The notes under the pieces: model-generated
What the model saw: the letters and a program-made list of their open reading frames with translations, nothing else
What the model was told of the DNA's origin: nothing
The model's database searches: none
Translations under genes and position numbers: made by a program
Shown here: piece after piece, positions 33,355 to 58,339 of the stretch
Layout of the letters: the number at the start of each line of letters is the position of its first letter
Numbering within the stretch: the stretch's first letter is position 1
Source: Diaphorobacter aerolatus
Lineage (GTDB): Bacteria > Pseudomonadota > Gammaproteobacteria > Burkholderiales > Burkholderiaceae_C
Reading direction: 5' to 3'
Length of the DNA: 64,000 nt
Assembly: GCF_014489535.1 (NCBI RefSeq)
Contig: NZ_CP060783.1
Location: 1,240,001-1,304,000 of the forward strand

Positions 33355-34260
33355 CTACGCCGGAAAAACGCCCGTGGACAGATAGCGGTCGCCGCGATCA
33401 CACACCACGAACACGATGGTCGCATTCTCTTCGCGCTCTGAAATCTGCTGCGCCACCACGCATGCGCCAGCCGCGGAAATGCCGCCAAAGATACCTTCTT
33501 CGCGCGCTAGGCGACGCGCCATGTCCTCGGCGTCGTTCTGCGTCACATACACCAGCTCATCAACGAGCGATGCATCGTAAATCTTGGGCAGGTATTCGTC
33601 GGGCCACTTGCGAATCCCCGGAATGCGCGAACCCTCCGTCGGCTGCGCGCCGACGATCTTCACATTCGGGTTCTTTTCCTTCAGAAATCTGGACACGCCA
33701 GTGATCGTGCCCGTCGTGCCCATCGCACTCACGAAATGCGTGATGCGGCCACCGGTTTGCTCCCATAGCTCAGGGCCGGTGCCCTCGTAGTGCGAACGCG
33801 GATTGTCGGCATTGGCAAACTGGTCCAGCACCACGCCCTTGCCCTGGCTGACCATCGTATCCGCGAGATCGCGGGCGTATTCCATGCCGCCGCTTTTGGG
33901 CGTGAGAATCAACTCGGCGCCGTAGGCCTTCATCGTCTGCGCGCGCTCGATCGACAGATCCTCCGGCATGATCAACACCATCCGATAACCCTTGATCGCC
34001 GCCGCCATCGCCAACGCAATCCCGGTGTTACCCGAAGTCGCTTCGATCAGCGTGTCTCCGGGCTTGATCTCGCCACGCTCCTCGGCCCGCCGAATCATCG
34101 ACACCGCAGGCCGATCCTTGACCGAGCCCGCAGGATTGTTGCCCTCCAGCTTCCCCAAAATCACATTGCCGCGCGCGGCACTCTGTTGGGCTCCGATACG
34201 CTGCAAGGCAACCAGTGGAGTGTTCCCGATTGCGTCCTCGATGGTGGGGTAGGAATTCAT
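33355..34260 (-). CDS. cysM: cysteine synthase B (O-acetylserine sulfhydrylase)
   Basis: PLP enzyme making cysteine from O-acetylserine and sulfide or thiosulfate. Motifs are IEDAIGNTPLVALQRI, the PLP lysine in NPAGSVKDRPA, ATSGNTGIALAMAAA (substrate loop), GTTGTITGVSRFLKE for PLP phosphate binding, and EEGIFGGISAAGACV. It ends at about 301 residues, typical of CysM, and the short NPAGSVKDR form favours CysM over CysK. The start at 34260 (MNSYPTIEDAIG) is favoured over an ATG 8 codons upstream. The tRNA-Leu fragment marking the integration site lies 53 bases upstream on the other strand. Confidence 0.92.
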   Translation of the reverse strand: MNSYPTIEDAIGNTPLVALQRIGAQQSAARGNVILGKLEGNNPAGSVKDRPAVSMIRRAEERGEIKPGDTLIEATSGNTGIALAMAAAIKGYRMVLIMPEDLSIERAQTMKAYGAELILTPKSGGMEYARDLADTMVSQGKGVVLDQFANADNPRSHYEGTGPELWEQTGGRITHFVSAMGTTGTITGVSRFLKEKNPNVKIVGAQPTEGSRIPGIRKWPDEYLPKIYDASLVDELVYVTQNDAEDMARRLAREEGIFGGISAAGACVVAQQISEREENATIVFVVCDRGDRYLSTGVFPA

Positions 34261-34313
34261 ACCCAATACTGTGCCATAATTCATGTCTTCGCGAGTTCAC
34301 GCACCCAACAATA

Positions 34314-34353
34314 GCCCGAGTGGTGGAATTGGTAGACGCAGCGGACTCAAAAA
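34314..34353 (+). pseudogene. truncated tRNA-Leu(CAA), 5' part only
   Basis: GCCCGAG acceptor strand, a Leu-type D arm (GGTGGAATTGGTAGACGC) and the start of an anticodon arm, CGGA-CTCAAAA. The sequence then diverges: TCCGC, needed to close the anticodon stem, the variable arm, T arm and acceptor end are all missing. The break is at the 3' side of the anticodon loop. It looks like the resident chromosomal gene, cut by integration of the element that follows. Confidence 0.8.
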
Positions 34354-34539
34354 TAGGGACTTCTACGTAGTTCTTGCTTGAGGTCACTGCCTGCCAAGCC
34401 GCATGGGACAAGGGATTGAGTGATAAATCGCCTCTTGATCGAGATGCCTGCATTTCGAGCCAGGAGTCAGCTAGGAGCCAGGACGATGCAAGCTGGCTCC
34501 CAGTGAGGAGTAGATAGTTGAAGTAGCATCGTGCGTCAT
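34354..34539. other. 186-bp segment between the truncated and the intron-bearing tRNA-Leu
   Basis: No gene or tRNA 3' half is recognisable here. The only structure is an 8-bp inverted repeat GGAGCCAG (34474-34481) with CTGGCTCC (34493-34500). If the element integrated at the anticodon loop, this is its outermost sequence, possibly att-flanking DNA. It should also contain the promoter for the following tRNA gene, though no clear -35/-10 is visible. Confidence 0.4.
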
Positions 34540-34860
34540 GCCCGAGTGGTGAAATTGGTAGACGCAGGGGACTCAGACCAAATTTGAGCCCTCCGGGGAA
34601 ACCCCAGAGGTGAAGCCCGTCAAACTCGGCGAAGGCCCTGGACGCAAGTCCGAGCTAATACCGAGCCAAGCCCTGGAGCCGAAAGGCTCCTCGGAAGGTG
34701 TAGAGAGCAGACGGCGGGCACCTACGGCCGAAAGGCTATGGTGAAGGCGTGCTCCAGCCCACGAACGCCGTTTCTTCGGAGACGGCGGCGGCGAAAGCCG
34801 AAGTGGGAAGAAAATCCCCCGCCGCAAGGCGTGCCGGTTCGATTCCGGCCTCGGGCACCA
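34540..34860 (+). tRNA. tRNA-Leu(CAA) interrupted by a group I intron
   Basis: The exons 34540-34574 and 34811-34860 join to an 85-nt class II tRNA. It has acceptor GCCCGAG/CTCGGGC, discriminator A with encoded CCA, anticodon stem GGGGA/TCCCC around loop CTCAAAA (anticodon CAA, reading UUG), variable arm CGCC-GCAA-GGCG, and T arm GCCGG-TTCGATT-CCGGC. The anticodon is split after its first base, C34, by the 236-nt intron, the same insertion point as in cyanobacterial tRNA-Leu(UAA). It differs from the truncated copy at 34314 in several bases (GGGGA against CGGA), so it is not simply the other half of the same gene. Confidence 0.93.
34575..34810 (+). ncRNA. group I (IC3-like) self-splicing intron in tRNA-Leu
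   Basis: The 236-nt intron ends in G. Core elements align with the known Azoarcus tRNA-Ile intron: P (GTCAAACTCGGCGAAGG, 34619-34635), Q (CCGAGCCAAGC from 34661), R (GGTGTAGAGAGCAGACGG near 34697) and S (GGTGAAGGCGTGCTCCAG near 34740). P7 pairs GAGCA (34705-34709) with TGCTC (34750-34754), where Azoarcus has GACUA/UAGUC, a compensatory change that supports real structure. Other helices: P2 with GGGG/CCCC, P4 CTCGG/CCGAG, P5 GGAC-GCAA-GTCC, P6 GGAGCC-GAAA-GGCTCC. P1 would pair exon CTC with GAG at 34586-34588. No homing endonuclease is encoded. Confidence 0.93.
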
Positions 34861-34868
34861 ATTCAAGA

Positions 34869-34898
34869 GCCGCCTCTGTCAAGCAGAGGCGGCTTTTT
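34869..34898 (+). terminator. rho-independent terminator after tRNA-Leu
   Basis: Perfect 10-bp stem GCCGCCTCTG/CAGAGGCGGC with a 5-base loop and five T, starting 9 bases after the tRNA CCA end. The DUF2274 gene of the opposite strand stops inside its loop, so it may act on both sides. Confidence 0.88.
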
Positions 34899-35121
34899 CG
34901 TTCTTGGTCTGCGTGCGCTTGAATCCTCGATCCCCCGCCATGAAGGTTTCCAGCATGTACGGGATCAGCATCGTGGCATCGACCGCCTCCCCATACGCCT
35001 GCGCGTACAGCGCGGCATAGCGGTCAAGGTCGGCTTTCAGGCTGACCGAGCACGCAAAGGTTAGCTTCGTGGACTCCAGCTTGGGCAGCGGCCCCAGCCG
35101 CAATTTCTTCGTCGTGCTCAT
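34879..35121 (-). CDS. DUF2274 small protein at the end of the trb operon
   Basis: An 80-residue protein (MSTTKKLRLGPLPKLESTKL), hydrophilic with a helix-rich middle (KADLDRYAALYAQAYGEAVD) and a basic tail. I recognise it as the DUF2274 protein that regularly follows trbI in Tn4371-type elements; its function is unknown. Its ATG overlaps the reconstructed trbI stop (ATGA), which implies translational coupling. Its stop lies in the loop of the terminator at 34869. Confidence 0.8.
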   Translation of the reverse strand: MSTTKKLRLGPLPKLESTKLTFACSVSLKADLDRYAALYAQAYGEAVDATMLIPYMLETFMAGDRGFKRTQTKNEKAASA

Positions 35122-36378
35122 CGCATCGCCCCCGCTGGAAGAACATCGGCTGGTACGGTCGCAACACCAGATCGCGGTTGACGATGATCCGCACCGGCAG
35201 GCCCGGCCGCTCCGTCAAGGTCGGCTGAATGTTCATGTTGCGCCGGGTCATCTCCTGGCCGACCTGATTGATGCTGTCCTGCGCGCTGTCGCGCCCGGCA
35301 ATCACGATGCGGTTGCCGTTCTGCCGGTTCTCCGGCGCGGCCAGCTCCGCGCCCACGCCCAGCAGTGTCGTCAGCGCCGCACCGGCAAAGACGCGATCCC
35401 AGTGCCAATCGACGCCATCCTCCAGGCCGGAGTAGCCGGCCGGGTCGGCGCCCGCGAGGTTGTCGAGCTTCAGCGAAGACGTATCCGGCAAGATAATGCG
35501 GTTCCACACCACCTGCACGCGGCTCTGCCCATAGCTCATCTGGCTGTTGTACTTGCCCATGAGGCGCGAGCCCTGAGGGATCAACAGAAACTTGCCCGTG
35601 GCCGAGTCGTAGACCGGCTCCGTCACCGTGCCAATCACGTCGCCCGGCAGGTCCGACTTGATGCCTGTCACCAGCGCCCCGGCGATCACCGTCCCGGCCA
35701 TCATCTGGTACGGCGAGGCTGGCATTTGCAGATTGCCAGAATTGCGGGTTTCCGTAGAACCGCCTTTCAGGAAAGCCTCTTTCTGGTCTTGCCGGTTCTG
35801 CACGGCGGTCGGGTCGGCAGGCTGGGCAGCCGTCGAGGCCGGCCCAGCGGCCAGCGGGTCGAAGCCCGCCAAGGTCGATGCCGGGCCAGCCGCTTGCGCA
35901 GTCGCTGGCGCTGCGGTCTTGCCGGGCGTACCAGAATGGAAGAACACCGAGGAAGCCGCTGCCGCTTCGGCTTCCTTGCGCCGAGCGTCCTCCGGGTCGT
36001 GGCCCGGTGGCGCATACGTGGGTGTCACCGGCTGCTGCGCCTTCACGATGGCAGGGCCGAGATCGCCCGGCAGCGGCGGCCCCAGCTCCGGCACCTTCCG
36101 CAGCTTGGAGTAATCCGAAGGCAGGCCATCCAGCCCCTCGGACTTCGAGACGCGATCCACGTTGTAAAGCTCGGTCTGCTCGCCTGCGCCGCGCCGATGT
36201 GGCTGCAATGACCAGATCGTGGCCCTAGCACGGCGACCGACAGGCCGCCCGTGAGCATGGCCAAGGTGCGCCGATTCAGGCGTGTGACCGGGCGCGGCTG
36301 GGCGCGCAGCGCCACCGCCTCGGGCGCGACCTTGCCCGCCTGTGGCGTGCCAAGATCGCGAGTGTCGTCCTGGCTCAT
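35118..36378 (-). CDS. trbI: TrbI/VirB10-like conjugal transfer protein, with two apparent frameshifts
   Basis: Inner-membrane-anchored core-complex protein of the mating-pair channel. From MSQDDTRDLGTPQAGKV it has one membrane segment (LAMLTGGLSVAVLGATIW, about 41-58), a Pro/Ala-rich periplasmic linker, and the conserved VirB10 barrel (SPYQMMAGTVIAGALVTGI, LLIPQGSRLMGKYNSQ, GLEDGVDWHWDRVFAGAALT, IIVNRDLVLRPYQPMFFQRG). A missing G at 36223-36225 breaks the frame inside the membrane segment. A second missing base in the C run at 35129-35133 breaks it just before the end; restoring it gives ...RGAMR and a stop overlapping the DUF2274 start. Restored length is about 420 residues. Confidence 0.88.
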
Positions 36379-36380
36379 GG

Positions 36381-37373
36381 TCAGTTCCTCCGCGTGCCAC
36401 CGGAAACGCCATCGGTGCGCTCGATCCGCACCACATCGCCCTTGTCTCCGCCCAGGCGCAGTTCGGCCGCACCGAACAGGCGATCCACGATGTAATACGG
36501 CGACCGAAAACGGTAGTTCACCAACTGCCCGTCGCCCTGCGCGCCGATGACGAACAGCGGCGGCAGCTCGCCCTGCGCGATGCCCGGCGGGAACTGGATG
36601 TAGACCTTCCCGCCGTCATCGAAGGCGCGCAGCGGCTTCCACGGCGGATTGCTGCCGCTGACCGCGTAGCGGAAGCGGATCTTCTCCAGCGACAGGCCGC
36701 TATCGACCGGCGCGACGGCGCTGGCCGCTTGCGCCTGGCGCTGCAGGGCCAGCATCTTGTCCTTCGGGTACTCCCAGGACAACGACGCCATCCACGTCTT
36801 CTCGGTCGAAGTCAGCTCCAGCAGGTAGGTGCGCCGGCTGGTGGTGATGACTAGGTTGGTCTTCAACCCCGAGCGGATCGGTTTGACCATCACATTGACG
36901 CGCAGCGCATCGCCGCTGCCGCTCGACGTGTCCCCGACGATCCAGCGAACCGTGTCGCCAGCAGCCACCGTCACCAGCTCCTCACCAGGCTGGAGCGCGA
37001 TCACCGTCACGCGGCCCACGGCCGCATAGACCTGATACAGCGCGCCATCTGTGAAGGGCCACACTTGAATCGCGTTGACGTAGCCCTCGCGCGTGGGCGC
37101 AATACGCGCCTCGGCGTTGGCGCGAGACACGCGCACGGTTTCATCGGCGGGTTCTGCGACGGACTTGGCATCCGGCACAGGTTTCATCTGCGCTGGCATC
37201 GGCAGCACCTGCGGCACAGCCACTACCTCCACAGGCGTAGGCGGCTCCGGCAGCGGCTGGGCCTGCACCGGCTCATCGAGCGAGATGGACGGCGGCGGCT
37301 TGCCCTGCGTAGCGCAGCCCGTGAGGGCAAGCAGCATGATCGGCAAGGCGGATTTACGGAAAAGATCATTCAT
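36381..37373 (-). CDS. trbG: TrbG/VirB9-like conjugal transfer lipoprotein
   Basis: A 330-residue periplasmic/outer-membrane core-complex component. It begins with a lipoprotein signal peptide ending LLALTGCATQG (lipobox LTGC), followed by a Pro-rich stretch, then the VirB9 fold: GYVNAIQVWPFTDGALYQVY, GEELVTVAAGDTVRWIVGD, LVITTSRRTYLLEL and, at the C-terminus, KVYIQFPPGIAQGELPPLF with NYRFRSPYYIVDRLF. The start at 37373 (MNDLFRKSALP) overlaps the trbF stop (ATGA). An ATG 13 codons upstream lacks this coupling and the signal-peptide position. Confidence 0.92.
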   Translation of the reverse strand: MNDLFRKSALPIMLLALTGCATQGKPPPSISLDEPVQAQPLPEPPTPVEVVAVPQVLPMPAQMKPVPDAKSVAEPADETVRVSRANAEARIAPTREGYVNAIQVWPFTDGALYQVYAAVGRVTVIALQPGEELVTVAAGDTVRWIVGDTSSGSGDALRVNVMVKPIRSGLKTNLVITTSRRTYLLELTSTEKTWMASLSWEYPKDKMLALQRQAQAASAVAPVDSGLSLEKIRFRYAVSGSNPPWKPLRAFDDGGKVYIQFPPGIAQGELPPLFVIGAQGDGQLVNYRFRSPYYIVDRLFGAAELRLGGDKGDVVRIERTDGVSGGTRRN

Positions 37374-38074
37374 GGTTTTGCTCCTTCGTTCGCTTCCAGT
37401 TCGCGGCTCCACGACAGCCCGTTGGCGTAGATGCCCAGGGGGTTTTTGCGCACGCGCTGCTCGGTGCGCGGCGTCTGCTGCACGATGGACACCACGGCGT
37501 TCCAGCGTTCGGTGCGATCCAGCGCGCCGTTGACGAAGCGCGTCTCCGTCCAGCGCACGTTGAACGACGTGTCGCTGGCGCGGGTCACGCTGCTGATCTG
37601 CACCGTCACCGACTCCTTGCCGATACGCGCGAACGGATCGTTCACGCGGGCGTACTCGTTGAGCACCACGGCGCCTTTGTCGGTCGTGTAGTCATAGGCA
37701 TCGAGCCAGTTCTGCCGCACCACGATGGGGTCGATGGACAGCGAGCGCACCAGACCGATGAAGCGGCCGAGGTGGTAAGCAATCTGCGCATCGCTGGGCC
37801 GGTACGGCGTGGCCGCTTCGCCGACAGCGCGCACCTGACCCGAGTTGTCCACCTCGATGACGTAGGGGGTGACGATGGACTGCGCGGAACGCCAGACCAG
37901 GCCACCGGCCATCAGTACGGCCAAAGTGAGGCAGCCGAAGGCCATGAACCGCCAGTTCTTCGCCTGTACGCGGGCCGAGCCGATGCGCTCGTCCCAGGCC
38001 TGGGCGGCGGATTGGTACGGGGTAGCAGGCTGCGGTGTGTTGGCATAGCGCACCTGCGGTCTTTTGAATCGCAT
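37370..38074 (-). CDS. trbF: TrbF/VirB8-like conjugal transfer protein
   Basis: A 234-residue bitopic inner-membrane protein that nucleates the secretion-channel assembly. After a cytoplasmic N-terminus (RFKRPQVRYANTPQPATPYQ) comes a membrane segment (WRFMAFGCLTLAVLMAGGLV, about 42-61), then the periplasmic VirB8-like domain with VTPYVIEVDNSGQVRAVG, AYHLGRFIGLVRSLSIDP and SFNVRWTETRFVNGAL. It ends with KNPLGIYANGLSWSREL. It lies between trbL (18-base gap) and trbG (4-base overlap). Confidence 0.93.
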   Translation of the reverse strand: MRFKRPQVRYANTPQPATPYQSAAQAWDERIGSARVQAKNWRFMAFGCLTLAVLMAGGLVWRSAQSIVTPYVIEVDNSGQVRAVGEAATPYRPSDAQIAYHLGRFIGLVRSLSIDPIVVRQNWLDAYDYTTDKGAVVLNEYARVNDPFARIGKESVTVQISSVTRASDTSFNVRWTETRFVNGALDRTERWNAVVSIVQQTPRTEQRVRKNPLGIYANGLSWSRELEANEGAKP

Positions 38075-38092: not shown

Positions 38093-39427
38093 TCAGGAAT
38101 CGGAATCACGCAGGCTTGGCCCCTGGCTGGAGCTGCCGCCGTCGCCGCCGCGCAGCGTGTGGGCGGCGGTCGTCGCGGCATGGGTGAGTTGCTGCCTGCG
38201 GTGCAGGCGCTTGGCCCAGGCGGGTTGTTCGGCAGACGGAGCCGATCCGCTAGCGTCAGGGTCGGCGTGCGCGGCGCCGGAGGCCGGCGCGTCATCGGGC
38301 CGAAAGGCCGCCGCCATGCGTTCCTTCATCGACCGCGCCCCATCGGCGACTTTCTGCCCGGCCGCCTGCGCGCCGGTCTTGGCAACATTGCCCACGCCGG
38401 CGGCGGCACCCTTCAGGCCGCCACCGGCCGAAGTGGAGCCCGCCTGGTACGTCGACTTGGCGCTGCTGGCGGTCGATGCCATCGAGCGGGCGGCGGCGGG
38501 TGCCATGCGTGCCCCGGCCGCCACTGCGCTTCCGACGCCGGTAGCCGCGGCACCGACCGCCACGGCGGTTCCGGCTGCGCCGATGGCAGCACCGGCCATC
38601 GCGCCCGCGCCGAGCTGTGGCCCACCGGACACCAAGCCTGTCGCAATGCCCGGCCCAAAGATGCCCAGGGCCAGCATGGACAATGAGGCCAGCATGATGA
38701 CCAGCGCCTGGTCGATGGACGGCTCGGAACCGGGCGGTATCCTGAATTCGGCGAACAGCCCTGAGCCGATACCCACGACGACGGCGAGCACCAGCACCTT
38801 GATGCCCGAGGACACCACGTTGCCCAGCACCTTCTCGGCCATAAACGCTGTCTTGTTCCAGAGGGCAAACGGCACCAGCACGAAGCCCGCCAGCGTGGTC
38901 AGCTTGAACTCGATCAACGTGACGAAGAGTTGCACCGCCAGCACGAAGAAGCTGACGATGACCACCAGCCAAGCGAGAAATAGCACGACGATGGGCGCGA
39001 TGTGGATGAAGACCTCCGGGAAGCCCGCCATCTCCCGGATCTGGTCGAGGATGGGCGCCGCTGCGTCGATACCGGCCTTGGCCAACCGTCCCGGCTGCAG
39101 GAAGTTGCCCATGCTCAAGGTCGAGCCGCTGGCCGTCAGGCCCAGCCCGGCGAATGAGCGGAACAGGATGCCCGCCAGGGTGTTGAAATTGCCGATGATG
39201 TAGGCGAAGGCACCCACGTACAGCACCTTGCGGATCAGCTTGGCGATCACGTCCTCGCCCTGGCCGGTGGCATGCCCCATCGCCCAGAACAGCCCGGCGA
39301 GCGTCATGTCGATGACGATCAACGTTGCGGTCAGGAACGCCACCTCGCCATGCAACAGTCCGAAGCCCGAGTCGATGTAGCGCGAGAAGATGTCGAGGAA
39401 GCGGTCAATGACCGAAACGTCGTTCAT
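38093..39427 (-). CDS. trbL: TrbL/VirB6-like polytopic conjugal transfer protein
   Basis: A 444-residue inner-membrane protein with at least six hydrophobic segments. These include VAFLTATLIVIDMTLAGLFW, VLYVGAFAYIIGNFNTLAGI, IVVLFLAWLVVIVSFFVLAV and GIKVLVLAVVVGIGSGLF; a long Ala/Gly-rich, low-complexity cytoplasmic or periplasmic tail follows (AMAGAAIGAAGTAVAVGAAA onward). This layout is typical of TrbL, the proposed inner-membrane channel of the type IV secretion system. The tail composition is variable among relatives. It lies 12 bases after trbJ. Confidence 0.92.
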   Translation of the reverse strand: MNDVSVIDRFLDIFSRYIDSGFGLLHGEVAFLTATLIVIDMTLAGLFWAMGHATGQGEDVIAKLIRKVLYVGAFAYIIGNFNTLAGILFRSFAGLGLTASGSTLSMGNFLQPGRLAKAGIDAAAPILDQIREMAGFPEVFIHIAPIVVLFLAWLVVIVSFFVLAVQLFVTLIEFKLTTLAGFVLVPFALWNKTAFMAEKVLGNVVSSGIKVLVLAVVVGIGSGLFAEFRIPPGSEPSIDQALVIMLASLSMLALGIFGPGIATGLVSGGPQLGAGAMAGAAIGAAGTAVAVGAAATGVGSAVAAGARMAPAAARSMASTASSAKSTYQAGSTSAGGGLKGAAAGVGNVAKTGAQAAGQKVADGARSMKERMAAAFRPDDAPASGAAHADPDASGSAPSAEQPAWAKRLHRRQQLTHAATTAAHTLRGGDGGSSSQGPSLRDSDS

Positions 39428-39439: not shown

Positions 39440-40168
39440 TCAACGACTGTAGAAATCGACGGACCGCGGCGTGTACGGCGTGCCCTCACCCAGGAAGCGC
39501 CGGTTCACCTCGCGGCCCCGCTCCACGGCGGCGGCCTGCCGCGCCAGTTCCAGCGAGCCCGCGCGATCCTGCGTGATCTGCAGCCGCTGCGTTTGGATCG
39601 ACTGCTTGGCCTGCAGGGCCAGCAACTGGTTCGTGGCCTGCATCGCCTGCAAAGCGCCCACCGCCGATTGGCTCTTGCCCACGAGGTCGGCCAGCACGCC
39701 TTCGTCGTCGCTCAGGTTCTGCGATGCCTGAGCCTGCATCTGCATGGTGGTCTGCAGGCCATCGAGCGTGTTCTTCCAGCGTTCCTGCGCGTCGCGGTAC
39801 ATCTGGTTGCCGCTCACGGTGGCGGCGTATTGCTCGGGGTACAGGCGCTGGAATTCCCGATCCAGATTCGTCACGTCATAGGCCAAGCCCTTGGCCTGCG
39901 CGATCAGCCGCTGGGTGGTCGCCAGATTGGCGCGCAGCTGGCCGACCACGCTGGATGGCAGACTGGCCAGGTTGCGCGCCTGGTTGATGAGCATCTGCGC
40001 TTCGTTCTGGAGCTGCTTGATCTGGTTGTTGATCTGCTCCAGCGTGCGGATCGCGGTCAGCGTGTTCTGCACGAGGTTCGTGGGGTCGATCACGACCCAT
40101 TGCGCCTGCACGGCGGTAGCGGTGCAAAGCATGGCCGCGACGGCGGCGGCGAGAAGACGCTTTTTCAT
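39440..40168 (-). CDS. trbJ: TrbJ/VirB5-like conjugal transfer protein
   Basis: A 242-residue periplasmic protein with a clear signal peptide (MKKRLLAAAVAAMLCTATAV, cleavage after VQA), followed by WVVIDPTNLVQNTLTAIRTL and long helices rich in Gln/Ala. VirB5-like proteins are minor pilus-tip components. The start at 40168 overlaps the trbE stop (ATGA). A longer frame upstream is trbE in another frame. Confidence 0.92.
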   Translation of the reverse strand: MKKRLLAAAVAAMLCTATAVQAQWVVIDPTNLVQNTLTAIRTLEQINNQIKQLQNEAQMLINQARNLASLPSSVVGQLRANLATTQRLIAQAKGLAYDVTNLDREFQRLYPEQYAATVSGNQMYRDAQERWKNTLDGLQTTMQMQAQASQNLSDDEGVLADLVGKSQSAVGALQAMQATNQLLALQAKQSIQTQRLQITQDRAGSLELARQAAAVERGREVNRRFLGEGTPYTPRSVDFYSR

Positions 40169-42602
40169 GATGGGTTCTCCTGGAGATGGGTGGACGGGAA
40201 CGAGGACAGCAGGTCGGCGGCCCAATTCAGGCCGCGATGGCGCAGCCACGCGGCTACGAACGGGGTGGAAGCGGATGAAGCGGCAGCGAGCACCGCGTCG
40301 ATGTCGCGCTGGTCTTGCGGCGTGGACGTGCCCGCAAAGGCCAGCGTCGCGGCGCCCAGGTCGAGGTCGAACAGGCGGTTGCCGAGTCGGGATTGGTAGT
40401 AGTAGTCGCGCTTGGGCTGCGCGGTCGCCACGATCTCGATCTGGCGCGAGTTCAGCCCGAAGCCTTCGTAGATAACCCTGATCTGCGGCTCGGTCGCCTG
40501 TGGGTTGGGCAGGAAGATGCGGCTCGCGCAGCTCTCGATGATTGCGGGCGCGATGCTCGAATCCTTGATGTCCGCCAGGCTCTGCGTGGCGAAGATGACG
40601 CTCACGTTCTTCTTGCGCAGCGTCTTGAGCCATTGGCGGATGCGCGCCGCAAACACCGGGTCATCGAGGAACAGCCACGCTTCATCGAGGATCAGCAGCG
40701 TGGGCGCACCGTCGAAGCGTTCATCGAAGCGCGCAAAGAGGTAATGCAGCACGGCCATGACGGCGGCCTTGCTGTGCATCAGTTCCTCCATCTCGAAGCA
40801 CTGCACGGAGCCGGCGCCCAGGCGATCCGAATCCGCATCCAGCAGCTTGCCGTGGGCGCCGCCCAGCACGTACGGCGCGAGCGCCTGGCGCAGCGCATTC
40901 GATTGCAGCAGCACCGACAGGCCGGTCATCGTGCGCTGCTCCACCGGCGCACCGGCGAGACTGCCGAGCGCCGACCAGATGGCGGCCTTCTCTTCGGGGC
41001 CGACGGCTACACCCTCATGCCGCAAGCGCCCTTCGATCCATTCGGCGGCCCAGGTGCGGTAGCCCTCGCGGTCGATGCGGGCGAGAGGCTGAAACGCGAT
41101 CTCGCCATCCATCCCGAGGTCGTAGTGCTCGCCACCCAGCCCGAGGATGGTGGCGCGCATCGAGCGTCCCATGTCGAAGGCAAAGATGCGCGAGCCGCGA
41201 TAGCGCCGAAACTGCATCGCCAATGTGGCGAGCAGCACCGACTTGCCCATGCCCGTAGGACCAGCCACCAGCGTGTGGCCCACGTCGCCGATGTGCGTCA
41301 CCAGCCGGAACGGCGTCGCGCCCTCAGTGCGCGTGACGATCAGCGGCGGGCCGTCGAGGTGCGCGTTCTTCTCCGGCCCGGCCCATACCGCCGACACCGG
41401 CATCAGGTGCGCCAGGTTCAACGTGGAGACAATGGGCTGGCGCACGTTCGCGTAGGCATGACCCGGAATGGACGACAGCCACGCATCCACGGCGTTGAGC
41501 GTTTCGGGGATGGTGACGAAGCCACGCCCCTGGATGACGCGCTCCACCCTGCGCAGCTTCTCGTCGGCCACGGCGGCATCCGCGTCCATGACGGTGACGG
41601 TCGCTGTCACGTAGCCGAAGGCCACTTGATCGCTGCCCAGCTCCTGCAAGGCGGCATCGGCATCGGTGGCCTTGTTGCTGGCGTCGGTATCGACCAGCGG
41701 GCTTTCTTGCTGGAAGATCGTCTCGCGCAGCAGCGCGATGACGTTCTTGCGCTTGGCGAACCACTGGCGGCGCAAGCGCCCCAACTCCCGTTCCGCCTCG
41801 GATTTGTCGAGGCACAGAAAGCGCGTGCTCCAGCGATACCCAAATCCCAGGCGGTTGAGGTCGTCCAGAATCCCCGGCCAGGTCGAGGTCGGGAAACCGC
41901 GCACCGTCGCCACGCGCAGATGCTGGTCGCCCAGCATCGGTGCCAGGCCGCCGATCAGCGGCGCGTCGGCTAGCAGAGCGTCGAGGTGGAATGGCACCTC
42001 GGGCACGCCCACGCGGTAACGCCGCGTTGAAACGGTGGCATGCAGGTAGGTCAGCGTCTGGCTGTCATCGAGCCAGACGATCTCCGGCATCACGCCATCG
42101 AGCAGGTCAAAGATGCGATCCGTCTCCGCGACGAAGGCAGTTAGGCGCTCGCGCCAATCCACGCCTTCGGTGGGTCGGTTCTCATAGAGCAGCCCTGCTG
42201 CGCGGGCGCGCGACTCCTCGGCCGGCAGGTACACCAGCGTGAGGTGGTAGCCACTCTCGAAATGGTTGCCCGAGTCCTCGAAGGCGGCGCGGCGCTCCTC
42301 GTCCACCAGCCAGGACAGCGGCTCAGGAAACTCCGAGTGCGGGTAGCTGGCCGCGGGCCGGCGCTCGGCTTCGATGAACAGCGCCCAGCCCGAGCTCAGG
42401 CGGCGCAGCGCGTTGTTCAGCCGCGCCGACGTGGAGATCAACTCGCCCTGCGTCGCGCTGTCGAGGTCAGGCCCCGAAAGCGCGCCGTGCGCTGGAAGGC
42501 GCCATCCTTGTTCAGCACGACGCCCGGCGCGATCAGCCCGGCCCAAGGCAGCCAGTCGGCCAGCAGCGCCGGCCGCTGGCGGTATTCGGCAAGGTTCAGC
42601 AT
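40165..42602 (-). CDS. trbE: TrbE/VirB4-like ATPase, with an apparent frameshift near the 5' end
   Basis: The large ATPase that powers pilus assembly and transfer. It starts MLNLAEYRQRPALLADWLPW. Walker A is GPTGMGKSVLLATL (about residue 450) and Walker B is TLLILDEAWLFLDDP, with the VirB4 C-terminal signature VIFATQSLADI between later motifs. The frame breaks after FQRTARFRG: a missing base at 42470-42471 must be restored to read PDLDSATQGELIST. Restored length is 812 residues. It lies 10 bases after trbD and overlaps trbJ by 4 bases. Confidence 0.93.
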
Positions 42603-43286: not shown

Positions 43287-44319
43287 GGCAGTTCTCCAGG
43301 TTGATCAGGGGACACGGAAGAAAGGTCGGACTGCGGCAGCAGCTCCGGGAATGGAGCCTCCAGCGCATCCGCCAGTTGGTAGCCCGAGCCGTCGAAGCCG
43401 ACGACCCGAGCGATGCTCTCGATGCGGCGCTTGCGTCCGCGCCCGGCAATGTGGATGACCACGTTGACCGCTTCCGCGATCAGCGCACGGGGCGGGTTCA
43501 CCGCCACTTCGAGAATCAGTTGCTCCAGGCGCAGCAGCGCGCCCAGCGCGGAGCCGGCGTGGATCGTGGCGATGCCGCCGGGGTGGCCGGTGCCCAGACC
43601 TTGATGAGATCCAGTGCCTCGGCGCCGCGCACCTCGCCGACGACCACACGATCCGGGCGCAGGCGCATGGACGAACGCACCAGCTCGGTCATGGACACGA
43701 CGCCCTGGCGCGTGCGCAGCGGTACGTGATCGCGCGCCGCGCATTGCAGCTCCACCGTGTCTTCGAGCACCAGCACGCGGTCGCCCGTGGCGGCGATTTC
43801 GGCCAGCAGCGCATTCGCCAAGGTGGTCTTGCCGGTGCTGGTGCCGCCCGCGATCAGGATGTTCTGGCGCTCGCGCACGGCGCGCACCAGCAAACCAGCC
43901 TGTGCGGCGGTCATCATCCCGTCCTCGATGTAGCGCGACAGCGGGATCACACCAAAGGCACGCTTGCGCAAGGCGAAGGCTGGCCCCGGTGCAGCGGGCG
44001 GCAGGATGCCCTCGAAGCGTTCGCCGGTCTCGGGCAGCTCTGCCGTCAAAAGCGGCTGGCCGCGATGCACCTCGGCGCCGACGTGGGCGGCCACGAGACG
44101 GATGATGCGTTCGCCATCAGCCTCGGACAGCTCCTCGCCCATCGGGGCGCGGCCCGTGGACAGACGATCCACCCAGAGCGTGCGGTCGGGGTTGAGCATG
44201 ATTTCCACCACGTCCGGGTCTTCGAGCGCGGCGGCGATCAGCGGCCCCATGGCCGTGCGTAGCATCTGAATGCGGCGATCCAGCGAGGTGGCCGTGAAGG
44301 AGGAAAGAACGGCGCTCAT
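43283..44319 (-). CDS. trbB: TrbB/VirB11-like ATPase, with an apparent frameshift
   Basis: Hexameric traffic ATPase of the secretion system. Motifs are VVEIMLNPDRTLWVDRL, Walker A GGTSTGKTTLANALL, DRVLVLEDTVELQC, RPDRVVVGEVRGAEALDLI (Walker B region) and GHPGGIATIHAGSALGALLR (His box). The frame breaks after LIKVW: a missing G in the run at 43593-43595 must be restored to read GTGHPGG and then to the stop at 43283. Restored length is 345 residues. It starts inside the stop of the CopG-like gene (ATGA). Confidence 0.93.
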
Positions 44320-44780
44320 AAGGCACGCTCCTGGGCATCTGCAGCGGCCGCCGCGCCCTCCGATCGCGTCGGATCGGGGTGCAGTTCCTCCACCACATCC
44401 CGCACCAGGCTGCGCCCGCGCAGCAAATGCCGTCCGAGCTGTTCGACGAACTGCTCGAAGCGGGCCTTGCCCTGGGCGCGAGCGGCGTCCTGATGGGCCT
44501 CGGGCACGGGCGTGCTCACAGTGAGGAAATAGCGGATGAACAGCGCCAATGTTTCGATGGCAATGTTCTGGTCGCGCTCCAGACGCTCGGCGTGGCGCGA
44601 CAGGCGATCCAGTCGCTTGGCAATCGCCGCCTCGCGCTGGTCGGCCGCATCGGGCGACAGCCAGGAGGCCAGGGCCGCCGCGACGATGCTGGACTTGGAC
44701 ACGCCCTTCTTGGCGGCCAGTTCATCGAGCCGCTTGCTGTGCTCCGGCTGGATGAACACATTGAGGCGGTGTTGGGTCAT
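44316..44780 (-). CDS. CopG-type ribbon-helix-helix regulator of the trb operon
   Basis: A 154-residue protein whose N-terminus (RLNVFIQPEHSKRLDELAAK KGVSKSSIVAAALASWL) reads as a ribbon-helix-helix DNA-binding domain. A long charged helical C-terminal part follows. The same small gene sits between traG and trbB in Tn4371-type elements and may autoregulate the transfer operon; this role is inferred. It overlaps traG and trbB by 4 bases each. Confidence 0.85.
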   Translation of the reverse strand: MTQHRLNVFIQPEHSKRLDELAAKKGVSKSSIVAAALASWLSPDAADQREAAIAKRLDRLSRHAERLERDQNIAIETLALFIRYFLTVSTPVPEAHQDAARAQGKARFEQFVEQLGRHLLRGRSLVRDVVEELHPDPTRSEGAAAAADAQERAL

Positions 44781-46777
44781 AGGTCGATTCCGTCGTCAGG
44801 GTCAAGGGAAGCCAGCCGGGCCGTGCGCTGCAGGGCCGGGTCGAGCTGGCGAGGAAGGGGAAGCTGCATGTCATCGTCATCGAGCAGCCCGAGGTCGGCT
44901 GCAGGCGCAGCCAGGTCGGGGTCGTAGGCGGCGGCTTCGGAGAGTTCGGGTTGGCGACGCGGGCCGCCGTCGTCAGCGGCAGAGGGGAAGCCTTCAACGG
45001 CTTCGGTTGCAGGCGCCACCGGAACGGGAGGAACCGTCAGCCCGCTCCAGTCGTCGGGCCGTAAGGGAGGCACGTCGGCGTAGCGCCCCGCAACGAGTAC
45101 AGGAGGCGGCAGCACGCGCCGCTGGAAGTTCGCGTCAGAGTAGTAGCGCAGCTTCTTGGCCTTGATCGGCGCGACGCTGGAAACCATCACCACCGCCTCA
45201 TCGGGCGGCAGCTGCATCACCTCGCCCGGCGTGAGCAGCGGGCGGGCGGTTTCTTGTCTCGACACCATTAGGTGCCCCAGCCACGGTGCGAGTCGATGTC
45301 CCGCGTAGTTGCGCTGCGCGCGCAGCTCGGTAGCGGTGCCAAGGGTTTCGGAAATCCGCTTGGCCGTGCGCTCGTCGTTGGTGGCGAACGTCACGCGCAC
45401 ATGGCAGTTGTCGAGGATGGAATGGTTCTGGCCGTAGGCTTTGTCGATCTGATTGAGCGACTGCGCGATCAGGAAGCTGCGGATGCCGTAGCCCGCCATG
45501 AAGGCCAGCGCCGTCTCGAAGAAGTCCAGGCGCCCAAGCGCCGGGAATTCATCGAGCATCAGCAACAGCTTGTGACGGCGCTGGATGCCATCGCTGCCAT
45601 CGAGTGATTCCGTCAGCCGCCGCCCGATTTGGTTGAGGATCAGGCGGATCAGCGGTTTGGTGCGGCTGATGTCCGAAGGCGGCACCACGAGATACAGCGA
45701 CACGGGATGCTCGGCCGCGATCAGGTCGGCAATGCGCCAGTCGCAGCGCGAGGTGACTTCGGCCACCGTGGGGTCTCGGTACAGGCCGAGGAATGACATG
45801 GCGGTGCTCAACACGCCGGAACGCTCGTTGTCCGATTTGTTCAGGACTTCACGCGCTGCCGATGCCACCACCAGATGCGGTCCATCGCCGATGTGCGGCG
45901 TGGTCATCATCCGATGCAGGGTAAGCTCGAAGGGACAGGCCGGGTCGCTGAGGAAGTTGGCGACACCGCGCAGCGTCTTGTCTTCGCCTGCGTAGAGCAC
46001 ATGCAGGATGGCCCCAACCAGCAGCGCATGCGAGGTCTTCTCCCAATGGTTGCGCCGCTCCAGTGCTCCTTCGGGATCGACCAGAATGTCTGCGATGTTC
46101 TGCACGTCGCGCACTTCGTGCGCGCCGCGCCTCACCTCCAGCAGCGGGTTGTAGGCCGCCGACTTCGCATCGGTCGGGTTGAACAGCAGGCAGTGCGAGA
46201 AGCGCGAGCGCCAGCCAGCGGTGATGCTCCAGTTCTCGCCCTTGATGTCGTGAATGACGGCCGATGCGGGCCAGCTCAACAAGGTGGGCACCACTAGGCC
46301 CACGCCCTTGCCCGAGCGGGTAGGCGCGAAGGTCAGAACATGCTCCGGGCCTTCGTGCCGCAGGTACTGCTGGCGATGCAGGCCAAGGAATACGCCCGCA
46401 GACCGGTCAAGACTCGCCTTGTGGATGTCCTCCGCATTGGCCCAGCGCGCCGTGCCGTAGGTCGTGACCAGCTTGGACTGGCGCGAGCGCCAGATCGACA
46501 TGCCGACGGCAACCACCACCGCGATCAGGCCGCTGCCTGCGGCAATGGCACCGCCCACGTCGAATACATGCGGCGCGTAGGCGTCGAAGAAGAACCACCA
46601 CTCGAACAGGCGCCAGGGGTGATAGACCGGCGTGCCGAGGAAATCGAACCAGGGCGAACCCAGGCGTAGCTGGTAGCCCAGCGCCGCTGCTGTCCATTGC
46701 GTGGCGCTCCATACGCCAGCGATCACGATGCCGAAGACAACGGCAATCTGACCGAACAGCACGTTCGTTCCTTGCAT
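44777..46777 (-). CDS. traG: TraG/VirD4-like type IV coupling protein
   Basis: The ATPase that delivers the relaxase-DNA complex to the channel. Two N-terminal membrane segments (VLFGQIAVVFGIVIAGVW and GGAIAAGSGLIAVVVAVGMS) precede YGTARWANAEDI, Walker A APTRSGKGVGLVVPTL, VIHDIKGENW, Walker B LLLMLDEFPALGRLDFFE and FLIAQSLNQIDKAYG. The C-terminal tail is acidic (GLLDDDDMQLPLP). Length is 666 residues from the ATG at 46777 (MQGTNVLFG), which has GGGAGG upstream; a 17-codon longer frame has no such site. First gene of the transfer operon as seen here. Confidence 0.94.
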   Translation of the reverse strand: MQGTNVLFGQIAVVFGIVIAGVWSATQWTAAALGYQLRLGSPWFDFLGTPVYHPWRLFEWWFFFDAYAPHVFDVGGAIAAGSGLIAVVVAVGMSIWRSRQSKLVTTYGTARWANAEDIHKASLDRSAGVFLGLHRQQYLRHEGPEHVLTFAPTRSGKGVGLVVPTLLSWPASAVIHDIKGENWSITAGWRSRFSHCLLFNPTDAKSAAYNPLLEVRRGAHEVRDVQNIADILVDPEGALERRNHWEKTSHALLVGAILHVLYAGEDKTLRGVANFLSDPACPFELTLHRMMTTPHIGDGPHLVVASAAREVLNKSDNERSGVLSTAMSFLGLYRDPTVAEVTSRCDWRIADLIAAEHPVSLYLVVPPSDISRTKPLIRLILNQIGRRLTESLDGSDGIQRRHKLLLMLDEFPALGRLDFFETALAFMAGYGIRSFLIAQSLNQIDKAYGQNHSILDNCHVRVTFATNDERTAKRISETLGTATELRAQRNYAGHRLAPWLGHLMVSRQETARPLLTPGEVMQLPPDEAVVMVSSVAPIKAKKLRYYSDANFQRRVLPPPVLVAGRYADVPPLRPDDWSGLTVPPVPVAPATEAVEGFPSAADDGGPRRQPELSEAAAYDPDLAAPAADLGLLDDDDMQLPLPRQLDPALQRTARLASLDPDDGIDL

Positions 46778-46791
46778 TGGCCAACCTCCCG

Positions 46792-46815
46792 CTACGGCAC
46801 AGGGACATGCCGTAG
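46792..46815. promoter_or_regulatory. inverted repeat upstream of traG
   Basis: Perfect 8-bp arms CTACGGCA/TGCCGTAG with an 8-base spacer, 15 bases before the traG start. It could be an operator for the transfer operon, perhaps for the CopG-like protein, or a leader hairpin. No T run follows. Confidence 0.4.
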
Positions 46816-46909
46816 TGCCGAGGATCAAGGCGAGCGTGCAGGTCGGTCAAAGACCGTTATAGCGGGGATTCAGGCCAAAATGGCCAGACTTCTTGCTGTG
46901 GCGAAGGCA

Positions 46910-47247: not shown

Positions 47248-48174
47248 TCAGGAGTCCTCGGCGGCGCTGGAGCCATCCGCCGAATCAATGGAGGCCACTC
47301 GTTCGATGAACCGGGCCAGCATTTCGGAGGGCTCCACGTCACGGTGCAGCAGATACGTGGCCAGCATCTGCGGCTTGCCCGCCAAGCGCCGGGCCACAAC
47401 ACCTGGCCCACGGCCGGATGCAATGTGCGCGGCGCCCGCCAAACCGAGCGCCAATCCGGCTGAGACCAAGGTCATCATCACCTCATAGGACGCCACGCGC
47501 TGGGCGATCAGTGGCTGTTGCTCGTAGCGCTGCAAAACGCGATCAACTTGGCGTGCATGGCCTTCGCATATCGCCGGATCGCATAGCGCCAGCGGATAGC
47601 GCAACACTTCTTCCAACGGCACGTGCTTGTGGGCCAGAACAGGATGGCGAGCTGGGACCGCCACCATCAGTTCGTCTTCCCATGCAGGCCTGACCACAAT
47701 GCCGTCGCCCACCTCTTCGGCCATCGAAAAGCCGACGTCATACAGGTCATCGTGCAGACCCTTGATCTGTTGATCCAACGGCACCTCAAATAGCCGAACA
47801 TCAATCTCTGGATCTTCCGCTCGGCACTGTGCCAGCAGCGTCGGCATTCGCGAGGGCGTGATGCCATCGGACAAAGCGATGCGCAACTGTCGCTGAAACC
47901 CACTGGCGGCGGACTTGACGCCGTCACACGCCTGTTTCAGAGCTTCGAAGATTCGCGGCACCCGCTCCAGGAATGCCATTCCGGCAAAGGTCAGGCGGGT
48001 GCTTCGCGTGGTTCGCGTGAACAGTTGCGCCCCGAGCTCTTCCTCTATCTCCTTGATGGTGCGCGACAAAGGGGACTGATCGATGTGCAGCTTTTCCGCT
48101 GCGCGGCCGAAGTGAAGTTCTTCGGCCACCGCTATAAAGCAACGTAAATGCCGAAGCTCCATGGTGTATCTCAT
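47248..48174 (-). CDS. LysR-family transcriptional regulator
   Basis: A 308-residue regulator. The N-terminal winged helix ([40 protein letters not shown]) is followed by a substrate-binding domain of two lobes starting near [16 protein letters not shown] LysR gene beside traG is common in Tn4371-type elements. It could control the transfer genes or the neighbouring etf genes that start 5 bases downstream of its 5' end; its target is not known. Start at 48174 or at MELR, 48162. Confidence 0.9.
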
Positions 48175-48179
48175 CCAAT

Positions 48180-49124
48180 TTAAAAGGCCTTGACGAATTC
48201 CGGCACAACTGCGAAAAGGTCCGCCTCCAGCCCGTAGTCGGCCACGCTGAAGATCGGGGCCTCGGGGTCCTTGTTGATCGCCACGATCACCTTGGAGTCC
48301 TTCATGCCGGCCAGGTGCTGGATGGCGCCCGAGATGCCGGCGGCAATGTACAACTGCGGCGCGACGATCTTGCCCGTCTGGCCCACTTGCAGGTCGTTGG
48401 GGGCGTAGCCCGCATCCACGGCAGCACGGCTGGCGCCGATGGCAGCGCCCAGCTTGTCGGCCAGGGGGGTGATGACTTCGTCGAACTTTTCCTTGCTGCC
48501 CAGCGCACGGCCACCAGACACGATGATCTTGGCGGCGGTGAGTTCGGGGCGGTCGCTCTTGGCGATCTCGCTGCCCACGTAGCTGCTCTTGCCAGCGTCG
48601 GCGGCCGCAGCAGCGGTTTCGACAGCGGCGCTGCCACCCGTGGCGGCGGCGGCGTCAAAGCCGGTGGTGCGCACGGTGATGACCTTCACGGCATCAGCAG
48701 ACTGCACGGTGGCGATGGCGTTGCCGGCGTAGATGGGGCGCTCGAAGGTATCGGCGGAGATGACCTTGGTGATGTCGCTGATCTGGGCGACGTCGAGCTT
48801 GGCAGCCACGCGCGGGGCCACGTTCTTGCCGCTGGCGGTGGCGGGGAACAGGATGTGGCTGTAGTTGCCGGCACCACTGCCATGGAGTGCCAGCACCTGG
48901 GCGGCCACGTTCTCGGCGAGGCCGTGGGCCAGGCTGGCGCCGTCGGCGTGGATGACCTTGGCAACGCCGGCGATCTGGCTGGCTTGCTGTGCGGCAGCGC
49001 CGGCGTTGTGGCCGGCCACCAGCACGTGCACGTCGCCGCCGCAGGCTGCGGCGGCCGTCACGGTGTTGAGCGTCGCGCCCTTGATGGTCGCGTTGTCGTG
49101 TTCAGCGATTACGAGTACGGTCAT
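48180..49124 (-). CDS. etfA: electron transfer flavoprotein alpha subunit
   Basis: FAD-binding subunit that passes electrons from acyl-CoA dehydrogenases to ETF:quinone oxidoreductase. The 314-residue protein begins [20 protein letters not shown] and contains [16 protein letters not shown], the FAD-binding [20 protein letters not shown] and [20 protein letters not shown], ending [20 protein letters not shown]. It lies one base after etfB and upstream of the LysR gene. A housekeeping copy may exist elsewhere; here it serves the adjacent dehydrogenase genes. Confidence 0.95.
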
Positions 49125-49125
49125 G

Positions 49126-49875
49126 TCAGATCACCTTCGCTTCGTTCTTGAGTTTCTCGACCAGGGCGGCCACGTCGGCCACCTTCACGCCGGCGCCGCG
49201 CTTGGCGGGTTCGCTGACCTTCAAGTTCTTCAGGCGCGGGGCCACGTCCACGCCGAGGTCTTCGGGCTTGACGGTGTCCAGCGGCTTTTTCTTGGCCTTC
49301 ATGATGTTGGGCAGCGTGACGTAGCGCGGCTCGTTCAGGCGCAGGTCGGCGGTGATGACGGCGGGCAGCGTAAGGCTGAGGGTTTCCAGGCCGCCGTCCA
49401 CTTCGCGGGTCACGGCTGCCTTGTCGCCGGCGATCTCGACCTTGGAGGCGAAGGTGGCTTGCGGCAGGTCGGCCAGCGCCGCCAGCATCTGGCCGGTCTG
49501 GTTGCAGTCGTCGTCGATGGCCTGCTTGCCCAGGATCACGAGGCCGGGCTGTTCATTGTCGATCAGGGCCTTGAGCAGCTTAGCCACGGCCAGCGGCTGC
49601 AGTTCTTCATTGGTCTCGACCAGGATGCCGCGGTCGGCACCGATGGCCATGGCGGTGCGCAGCGTCTCCTGGCATTGGGACACGCCGCACGAGACGGCGA
49701 CGATCTCCGTTGCCGCGCCTTTCTCCTTGAGCCGCACAGCCTCTTCGACGGCAATCTCGTCGAAGGGGTTCATGCTCATTTTGACATTGGCGATGTCCAC
49801 GCCGCTGCCATCGCTCTGGACGCGGACCTTGACGTTGTAGTCAACCACCCGCTTGACGGGAACCAGGATTTTCAT
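49126..49875 (-). CDS. etfB: electron transfer flavoprotein beta subunit
   Basis: AMP-binding partner of EtfA. The 249-residue protein starts [19 protein letters not shown] and carries [58 protein letters not shown] and the C-terminal signature [17 protein letters not shown]. The ATG at 49875 follows AAAGGAAACCCTCCC; an ATG 8 codons upstream is not needed. The gene lies 24 bases after the acyl-CoA dehydrogenase at 49900. Confidence 0.95.
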
Positions 49876-49899
49876 GGGAGGGTTTCCTTTCAGGATCAT

Positions 49900-51680
49900 T
49901 CAGAGTTGATCATCCGCCAGGGCCAGCGTGCTGGCGGCGCCGCCCGTGACGATGTCGCGCAACATCGGCGCCTGCACTAGGACATGCGCTGCGTAGTGGC
50001 TGGCCGTGGCACGCTTGGCGCCGAGAAAGCCCGCATCGCCAGATCTCGCCGCGAGTTGCGCAGTGGCGGCTTCGGCCATGCGCGCCGACAGCCAGCCGCC
50101 GATCACCGTGCCCGCCAGCCGCAAGAAGGGCACGGCGCCCGCCGCGCACTGCGCGGGTTGGTCGTCGTGGGCCAGCAGCCAGTCGGCCGCGTCCCCCAGC
50201 GCACGCGCCGAAGCCGCTAACACGCCGCCGATCTGCGCCAGCGCGGCATCGGGCATCTCGGCCAACCGGCGCGCATCGCCGTCGATGCGGCCCAGCAGTG
50301 CCTTCAGCGTGCGCCCGCCCTCGCGCGCCAGCTTGCGGCCAATCAGGTCGTTGGCCTGGATGCCCGTCGTGCCTTCGTAGATGGTCGTGATGCGCGCGTC
50401 GCGCAAGTGCTGTGAGGCGCCGGTTTCCTCGACGTAACCCATGCCGCCATGCACCTGCACACCATCGGACGTGATGCCCTGTGCGCTGTCGGTGCACCAG
50501 CCCTTGACCACCGGGATCAGCAGGCCGACCAGGGCCAGCGCCTGCTCGCGCTCTTGCGCGTCGGCGTGGCCTGCGGCGCGGTCCATCTGGCCGGCGCAGA
50601 AATAGGCCAATGCGCGCATGGCCTCGGTGCGGGCCTTCATGTCCATCAGCATGCGCCGCACGTCCGGGTGGCCGGCGATGGTGGTGCTGCCGCTGAGCAG
50701 TGGCTTGCCCTGCACCCGCTCCAGCGCGTAGGCGCGTGCGCGCTGGTAGGCGCGCTCGGCGATGCCCACGCCTTCAAGGCCGACGTTCAGCCGCGCATGG
50801 TTCATCATCGTGAACATGCAGGCCAGCCCCTGGTTCGGCTCGCCGACCAGGTAGCCGATCGCGCCCCGCAGTCGCCAAAGCTCATCGACGCCGTGGGGCT
50901 GCCGTGGATGCCCATCTTGTGCTCGATGGAGGTGCAGGCCAGGTCGTTGCGTTCGCCCAGGGAGCCGTCGTCGTTGACCAGGTACTTCGGGCACAGGAAC
51001 AGCGAGATGCCTTTCACGCCGGGCGGTGCATCGGGCAGGCGCGCCAGCACGAGGTGGACGATGTTCTCGGCCATGTCGTGCTCGCCCCAGGTGATGAAGA
51101 TCTTGTTTCCGCTGACGCGGTAATGGTCGCCTTCGGGCACGGCGCGACTGCGCAGCGCGGCCAAGTCGGAGCCTGCTTGGGGCTCGGTGAGGTTCATGGT
51201 GCCGGTCCAGCGGCCCGCGACCATGGGCTCCAGGAAGCGGCGCTTGAGTGCGTCGCTGCCATGGTGCGCAATGGCTTCCACCGCGCCCAGCGTGAGCATC
51301 TGGCACAGGCTGAACGCGAGGTTGGACGACTTCCACATCTCCAGCACGGCTGTGGACACCAGCGTGGGCAGGCCCTGGCCGCCCCATTCGGTGGCAGCGG
51401 GCATGCCGTTCCAGCCGTTCTCGCAGAAGCTGGCCCAGGCTTCGCGAAAGCCATCGGCTGGCGTGACCTGGCCGTCGTGCCAGCGCGCGCCCTGCACGTC
51501 GCCGGTGCGGTTCAGCGGATCAAGCACGCCGGTGGCGTAGTGGGCAGCCTCCTGCAGGATGGCCTCGACCAGGTCGGGCGTGGTTTCTTCATGGCCCGGC
51601 TGGGCACAGATCGCATCCAGGCCTCCGACTTCCTTCATCGTGAACAGCATGTCGCGCAAGGGCGCGGCGTAGGTAGACAT
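49900..51680 (-). CDS. acyl-CoA dehydrogenase (large, DmdC-like architecture), with an apparent frameshift
   Basis: Flavoprotein that forms an alpha-beta double bond in an acyl-CoA and hands electrons to ETF. The restored 593-residue protein has the long form: an extra N-terminal helix (YAAPLRDMLFTMKEVGG), the core with MNLTEPQAGSDLAALRSRA and KIFITWGEHDM, catalytic IYEGTTGIQANDLIGRKL, and a C-terminal extra domain, as in 3-methylmercaptopropionyl-CoA dehydrogenase-type enzymes. The frame breaks after SFGDCG: a missing base in the C run at 50864-50867 must be restored to read GAIGYLVGEPNQG. The substrate is not predictable. First gene of the block leading to etfB-etfA. Confidence 0.88.
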
Positions 51681-51837
51681 TGCTTACTCCTCTTTGTGGG
51701 TTCAACCCGTCTGCCCCATAGGGCATACATCCATGCATGACCCTACCCACCAGGACAAGGCCCGGTCGATCAACCGCTTCAGGGCGGCTGAATTTCTCAG
51801 GCGGCTTACGACGCGATTAGTTGGTATGACAAGATTT

Positions 51838-53862: not shown

Positions 53863-53884
53863 CGCTGCTTCGACGCGGTCGCAC

Positions 53885-58328: not shown

Positions 58329-58339
58329 GAGACCAGAGA

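Follow-up and report, generated by a model that had tools for sequence, protein, structure and literature searches.

A conjugative element that splits its host tRNA-Leu(CAA) gene carries a replacement that a group I intron may hide from integration

We found in the window, by which we mean the whole 64,000-nucleotide stretch of Diaphorobacter aerolatus DNA that was analysed, the left part of an integrative and conjugative element that splits the only tRNA-Leu(CAA) gene detected in the host and carries a replacement for it, and the predicted self-splicing intron in this replacement likely hides it from the element's own integrase. The host gene is cut in two, a sister genome has the empty site, both ends of the element carry the core CTCAAAA, the replacement gene and the fold of its intron are there to be observed, and the lineage of the integrase matches the isotype of the tRNA. 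Beyond this case the evidence leans, with less assurance, towards a wider pattern in which integrative elements of Pseudomonadota would destroy their target tRNA gene, supply a spare of the same isotype and mask its core with a self-splicing intron, or else with a changed loop or stem; in some hosts all UUR leucine tRNA would depend on splicing.

Results

The host gene and the element that splits it

The host tRNA-Leu(CAA) gene is split at the anticodon loop by a 66.8-kb element. Its 5' half lies at 34314-34352 on the plus strand, with a 36-nt copy of the tRNA 5' half at 34314, 226 bp upstream of the spare gene; it was recognised as a 94% repeat of the 5' exon of the spare and by comparison with a genome of the same genus (G018). 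A 51-nt copy of the 3' half lies 66.8 kb away, at positions 1341161-1341211 of the host contig (G000:C1). The same-genus genome has one intact, intronless tRNA-Leu(CAA) gene, equal to the near half joined to the far half, and this gene stands beside the same PALP family gene (PF00291 in Pfam) that is the chromosomal neighbour on the left of the element here (33355-34284, minus strand) and that adjoins intact tRNA-Leu(CAA) in other genomes. Among the best 30 loci from a search of 100 family genomes, 23 were intact, 3 were split, including that of the window, and 4 were neither.

Comparison of attL with attR gave CTCAAAA, the whole anticodon loop, as the sequence common to both ends in nine of nine genomes. 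The attL core is at 34346-34352 (plus strand) and the matching attR at G000:C1 1341158-1341164, outside the window. In each of the nine genomes attL passes from CTCAAAA into sequence that is not tRNA, as attR does on its left, and integration therefore leaves the target gene in two parts. No further Leu(CAA) gene was found in the genome of the window by RF00005, by ARAGORN on class II loci or by sequence patterns; the RF00005 list skipped an intact Leu(UAA) gene found by another search and is therefore incomplete when used alone. A single GACTCAAAATC match elsewhere in the genome was considered as a Leu(CAA) gene and rejected, being not a tRNA.

The earlier note on this DNA had placed the intron-bearing gene at the border of a conjugative element, which was right to within 187 bp: the spare lies inside the left end, behind a left arm of that length (34353-34539, defined by position and similar in length in all nine genomes), and the trb/traG operon follows. 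The operon genes, all on the minus strand, encode TrbI (35024-36472; PF03743, 3.3e-60), TrbG/CagX (36381-37412; PF03524), TrbF/VirB8 (37370-38074; PF04335), TrbL (38093-39427; PF04610), a TrbE-like ATPase (40165-42546; PF19044 and PF03135), a TrbB-like ATPase (T2SSE, 43516-44319; PF00437) and the TraG coupling protein (44777-46828; PF02534, with NF010450 above its cut-off). The element thus has conjugative type IV secretion genes and a coupling protein, and also a gene (L038, 6272-8611, minus strand) that matches PF11843 (DUF3363) at 9.5e-147 and NF041267 (RlxS) at 527 bits, below the cut-off of 850. A tyrosine integrase of 450 amino acids (PF00589) is encoded at the right end, and att repeats are present at both ends. 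The cargo comprises acyl-CoA and CoA-transferase catabolism and ABC transport (window 47248-64000, L038 and L039). We take Tn4371-like to be the family name for integrative and conjugative elements of this kind. A DUF1016/YhcG nuclease gene adjoins the integrase of the element, and the host genome encodes a second integrase, 63% identical, at G000:C1 3102017-3103186.

The spare gene and its group I intron

The sequence at 34540-34860 reads as a complete class II tRNA-Leu(CAA) gene with a 236-nt insert (34575-34810) after C34, which matches the earlier description of complete exons around an insert at this position. The 5' exon (34540-34574) ends in C34, and the 3' exon (34811-34860), which encodes CCA, matches the displaced host 3' half (G000:C1 1341161-1341211) with 98% identity; both exons and the intron are on the plus strand. 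The intron divides the anticodon loop as CTC/AAAA (the slash marks the intron), and its 3' end, ...GTGGGAAG/AAAA, carries the terminal G that had also been noticed. ARAGORN in intron mode called a tRNA-Leu(CAA) with a 236-nt intron exactly at 34540-34860 and folded the exons without the intron as tRNA-Leu(CAA). Default ARAGORN found zero tRNA in the window, and Rfam at the gathering threshold gave zero matches there. A terminator-like hairpin lies 3' of the spare (34865-34897, plus strand) in a consensus scan, and such a scan of 34150-34950 found no sigma-70-type promoter; one idea is that the spare may be expressed from the putative host tRNA promoter directly upstream.

The covariance search suggested for this intron came out in part: RF00028 matches it over model positions 1-253, at a score of 18.8 bits (E 0.031 on 901 bases) where the gathering score is 50, a detection threshold that lies outside the definition of a group I intron. 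None of 14 related loci reached the gathering score either. Because the score was below gathering, we argued the fold from a comparison of relatives, which BLAST and a search by IUPAC pattern had found. An alignment of 30 introns had 97.3% of its cells paired in a 61-pair group I structure, against 80.0% in shuffles, with 0 of 500 as high, and slid controls of the alignment gave 30-47%. Changes on both sides were seen in 40 of the 61 pairs. The P3-P8 core is present with the P7 pseudoknot, and P7, formed here by GAGCA (34705-34709) and TGCTC (34750-34754) on the plus strand, is paired in 100% of the 30 sequences; the compensated changes reported for it hold up, since 3 of its 5 pairs have changed on both sides and the variants are mostly GACTA/TAGTC, GAGCA/TGCTC, GACTT/AAGTC or GACTG/CAGTC. 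The intron-mode call and the covariation in 30 relatives thus bear out a tRNA-Leu(CAA) gene interrupted by a group I intron, predicted to be self-splicing.

A U-G pair at the 5' splice site is the usual rule for group I introns, and C-G is unusual there. The U-G pair, usual though not universal, is absent from this intron. The internal guide GAG is at 34586-34588 (plus strand), where alignment and counts pair G34586 with C34, and it is kept in 16 of 16 rows with C34 when repeat fetches of the same loci are counted, which agrees with the C-G pair that had been read from the single sequence.

The pattern of tRNA-Leu with this intron matched at least 119 stretches in genome contigs and at least 119 in viral contigs. 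Among the matches listed there were 212 distinct parsed copies, of which 198 read CTT/AAAA (Leu UAA), 5 CTC/AAAA (Leu CAA) and 9 otherwise. Since tRNA-Leu(UAA) genes across Pseudomonadota hold close relatives of the intron, and split tRNA halves adjoin some of these, the CAA form appears to be a rare variant of a common arrangement. In a FastTree tree of 117 introns, the CAA introns formed two groups, with moderate support, inside a clade with UAA introns.

Two other observations concern the wider family. The viral matches are IMG/VR contigs (L174-L292), some of them near other tRNA-Leu-like sequences. The E. coli plasmid pE2855-3 (L007) has, at 2995-3293 and near aac(3)-IId, a complete tRNA-Leu(UAA) gene interrupted by a group I intron from the same family, and no split tRNA half was seen upstream of it; 646 of 20,395 E. 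coli records (624 of 5,426 genomes) held a 60-80% match to the query.

A survey selected on the integrase

An attL-only pattern searched over 369 genomes of the class matched in three genomes (that of the window, one with an intron starting with A and one with a chance match), which was too thin, and we therefore sampled by the integrase and not by the intron. Of 299 family genomes, 35 had a match to the integrase of the window at E<=1e-60, and 30 loci were read. The 3' half next to the integrase was of Leu(CAA) at 9 loci (84-100% identity) and of Leu(UAA) at 6 (66-67%), and 15 loci (at most 64%) had neither. All nine genomes with a close integrase (clade 1) had a split Leu(CAA) gene together with an intron-bearing Leu(CAA) spare, and 7 of 8 genomes with integrases 66-67% identical had intron-bearing Leu(UAA) spares.

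A list of uninterrupted 5' halves for the 15 tRNA-Leu genomes held 25 entries from 14 genomes; 15 of these halves were split (9 CAA and 6 UAA) and 10 were intact, and by exact pattern the intact genes were always of an isotype that was not split in the same genome. A seventh genome (G518) has the Leu(UAA) half split, with ambiguous bases. Intron-bearing spares were found at 16 places in 14 of the 15 genomes, 9 of them Leu(CAA) and 7 Leu(UAA), each of the isotype of the split gene; none was seen in the remaining genome (G497), a draft of 240 contigs with 87% completeness. In two genomes, G489 and G592, two elements have split the Leu(UAA) and the Leu(CAA) gene, and an intron spare accompanies each. 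As a control we took 20 genomes with an integrase at most 64% identical only (integrase flank read in 15 of 20), where a search with the intron-bearing gene of the window at E<=1e-12 found an intron spare in 1 (G514), a match to the 50-nt 3' exon only in 13 and nothing in 6, at a threshold that a very diverged intron spare could escape. The difference between the integrase-selected and the control genomes gives a Fisher p of 9e-8 with relatedness ignored. Chance was rejected as an explanation, the covariation and the integrase-selected sample agreeing.

That the intron travels with the element, which the earlier note had inferred, is supported by the nine Leu(CAA) genomes: in all of them the intron tRNA and the split host half are 226-229 bp apart, the exons of the intron tRNA are identical across hosts while the split halves vary, and the same-genus genome has an intact, intronless gene. 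The spliced spare differs from the host target by 0-2 mismatches in 37 nt in nine of nine. Separately, in G541 displaced Leu(CAA) 3' halves occur 60 kb apart (C2, 347595 and 408088), as if from a tandem second element, and one intron spare only is listed; G661 has a second 66% integrase at 3137988-3139157.

A distant integrase lineage

A second integrase lineage (class C) gave no match to the integrase of the window at E 1e-4. It matches PHROG integrase families, as the integrase of the window does, and its own Pfam scores lie below the cut-offs. A search with it in 299 genomes of another family matched 41, and among the 30 of the 41 whose loci were read there were 18 with a split Leu(UAA), 9 with a split Leu(CAA) and 3 without a Leu half. 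In L120 and its kin the integrase lies between the split 5' half and the spare. Some of these tRNA genes lie up to about 8 kb from the integrase, and we infer that the more distant ones are also part of the element.

With a split Leu(UAA) the spare had an intron in 16 of 18 cases, no spare was located within about 10 kb in the other 2, and the class C stretches that were read showed no Leu(UAA) spare lacking an intron. With a split Leu(CAA), spares were located in 5 of 9 cases and not located in 4, and all five are without an intron, which indicates that the intron is not obligatory. Three of the five (L465, L446 and L454) have a changed loop, TTCAAAA, which fits the same need as masking by an intron would. 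The other two keep CTCAAAA: in L456 one stem pair differs from the host half, and in L457 the stem is different and the gene lies on the opposite strand. These two unchanged loops are at odds with a strict version of masking.

Discussion

We propose that the intron acts as a mask, in the following way. The integrase would recombine within the anticodon loop, and as element and target have only about 7 bases in common, integration leaves the gene unrestored. The spare would supply the lost tRNA after its predicted self-splicing. Without an intron, a spare nearly equal, once spliced, to the host target would itself be a target, a near-perfect attB inside the element. The intron would cut the core in the DNA and leave only from the RNA, so that the spare could escape its own and related integrases. 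The intron family may have its origin in Leu(UAA) genes, where the splice site has U-G; the Leu(CAA) lineage has C-G in its place. In G489 and G592, where both Leu genes are split, UUA and UUG decoding would need splicing if there is no other copy; other Leu copies were sought there by exact pattern, which a diverged copy could escape. Indirectly, this suggests that the intron family may splice in vivo.

Integrases and group I introns alike favour anticodon loops, and their shared position alone therefore proves nothing. The captured spare could simply have happened to carry a selfish group I intron that splices harmlessly and has no role against integrases. We think this unlikely, though it deserves serious weight: group I introns are known from bacterial tRNA genes where no integrase is involved (PMC3984707), viral contigs often carry this intron family, and the class C Leu(CAA) spares do without an intron, two of the five with the loop core kept. 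On the other side, no intact uninterrupted gene of the split isotype matched the pattern in any of the 15 integrase-selected genomes, class C showed no intronless Leu(UAA) spare in the stretches read, three of its five intronless Leu(CAA) spares have a changed loop, and two integrase lineages that are only distantly related show the association. The coexistence in G489 and G592 of two kinds of element with different isotype targets raises another thought, that the intron guards the spare against superinfection by other elements that use the same loop and not against its own integrase; PMC3293823 suggests that an added intron could help an integrated archaeal element by blocking further invasion. 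This is the same chemistry as self-protection, which the match between integrase and isotype fits at least as well, and as the explanation here we regard shielding against competitors as quite improbable.

The C-G pair departs from the usual U-G rule and might block splicing, leaving the gene as a relic, and PMC11915505 lends this some colour: the tmRNA group I introns with C at position -1, 15 listed exceptions, pair this C with A, unlike the C-G found here. However, exons and splice sites are unchanged in nine genomes, covariation shows that the fold is kept, two groups of the intron tree, moderately supported, have C-G, and no other Leu(CAA) gene was detected in the genome of the window; a dead copy is very unlikely. 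It is hardly credible that the intron-bearing gene is native to the host and the element landed beside it. The 98% identity between its 3' exon and the displaced host half might suggest so, but the same-genus genome has one intact intronless gene at the site, and it is the exons of the spare that stay constant across hosts while the split halves vary.

If masking of the spare from the element's own integrase is correct, a group I intron gains a concrete job, that of masking a recombination site in DNA with the RNA product left intact, and this would help explain the persistence of such introns in tRNA-Leu genes of mobile elements. The archaeal proposal that tRNA introns keep integrases away would become testable. 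Default tRNA annotation overlooks the spare gene and, with it, a sign of an island boundary.

Examples of bacterial tRNA group I introns are those of cyanobacterial tRNA-Leu(UAA), Azoarcus tRNA-Ile and Agrobacterium tRNA-Arg. The intron described here has the same fold, is short like them, and sits after nucleotide 34, presumably the same position as in cyanobacterial Leu(UAA), but its host gene is tRNA-Leu(CAA), its splice site has C-G, and it lies in an element-borne spare for the very gene that the element splits. Tn4371-like elements share the trb/traG operon, a gene for a DUF3363 protein that is a candidate RlxS-type relaxase, a tyrosine integrase at one end and catabolic cargo, and differ from the present element in its integration in the tRNA-Leu(CAA) anticodon loop and its intron spare. 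We found no account of an intron-bearing spare tRNA on an integrative element in the open-licence papers searched. It is plausible that known parts, namely group I introns in tRNA genes and islands that target tRNA genes, are newly combined here and that the intron has a new function.

The islands that Islander deals with restore their target gene (PMC4383910), and they resemble our element in their tyrosine integrase, in a crossover subsite at the anticodon loop and in a displaced tRNA fragment at one end. In contrast, in none of our nine genomes has a tRNA fragment from attP restored the target gene at one end; the split gene stays split, and a separate intron-bearing spare, invisible to default ARAGORN, is present. 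Protection of tRNA genes from integration by their introns has been proposed before, for archaea (Randau and Soell, as cited in PMC4390854; PMC3293823). According to PMC3293823, direct evidence for protection is lacking, the intron is inferred to have been brought by a mobile element, and it could protect this element from further invasion; of the earlier ideas that we met, this one comes closest. Common to the two cases is the proposal that integrases are kept from a site by an intron in the tRNA gene. In the archaeal element the intron arrived in attP and ended in the rebuilt host gene, whereas here a separate spare gene carries a group I intron, and its isotype is matched to the integrase lineage in many genomes.
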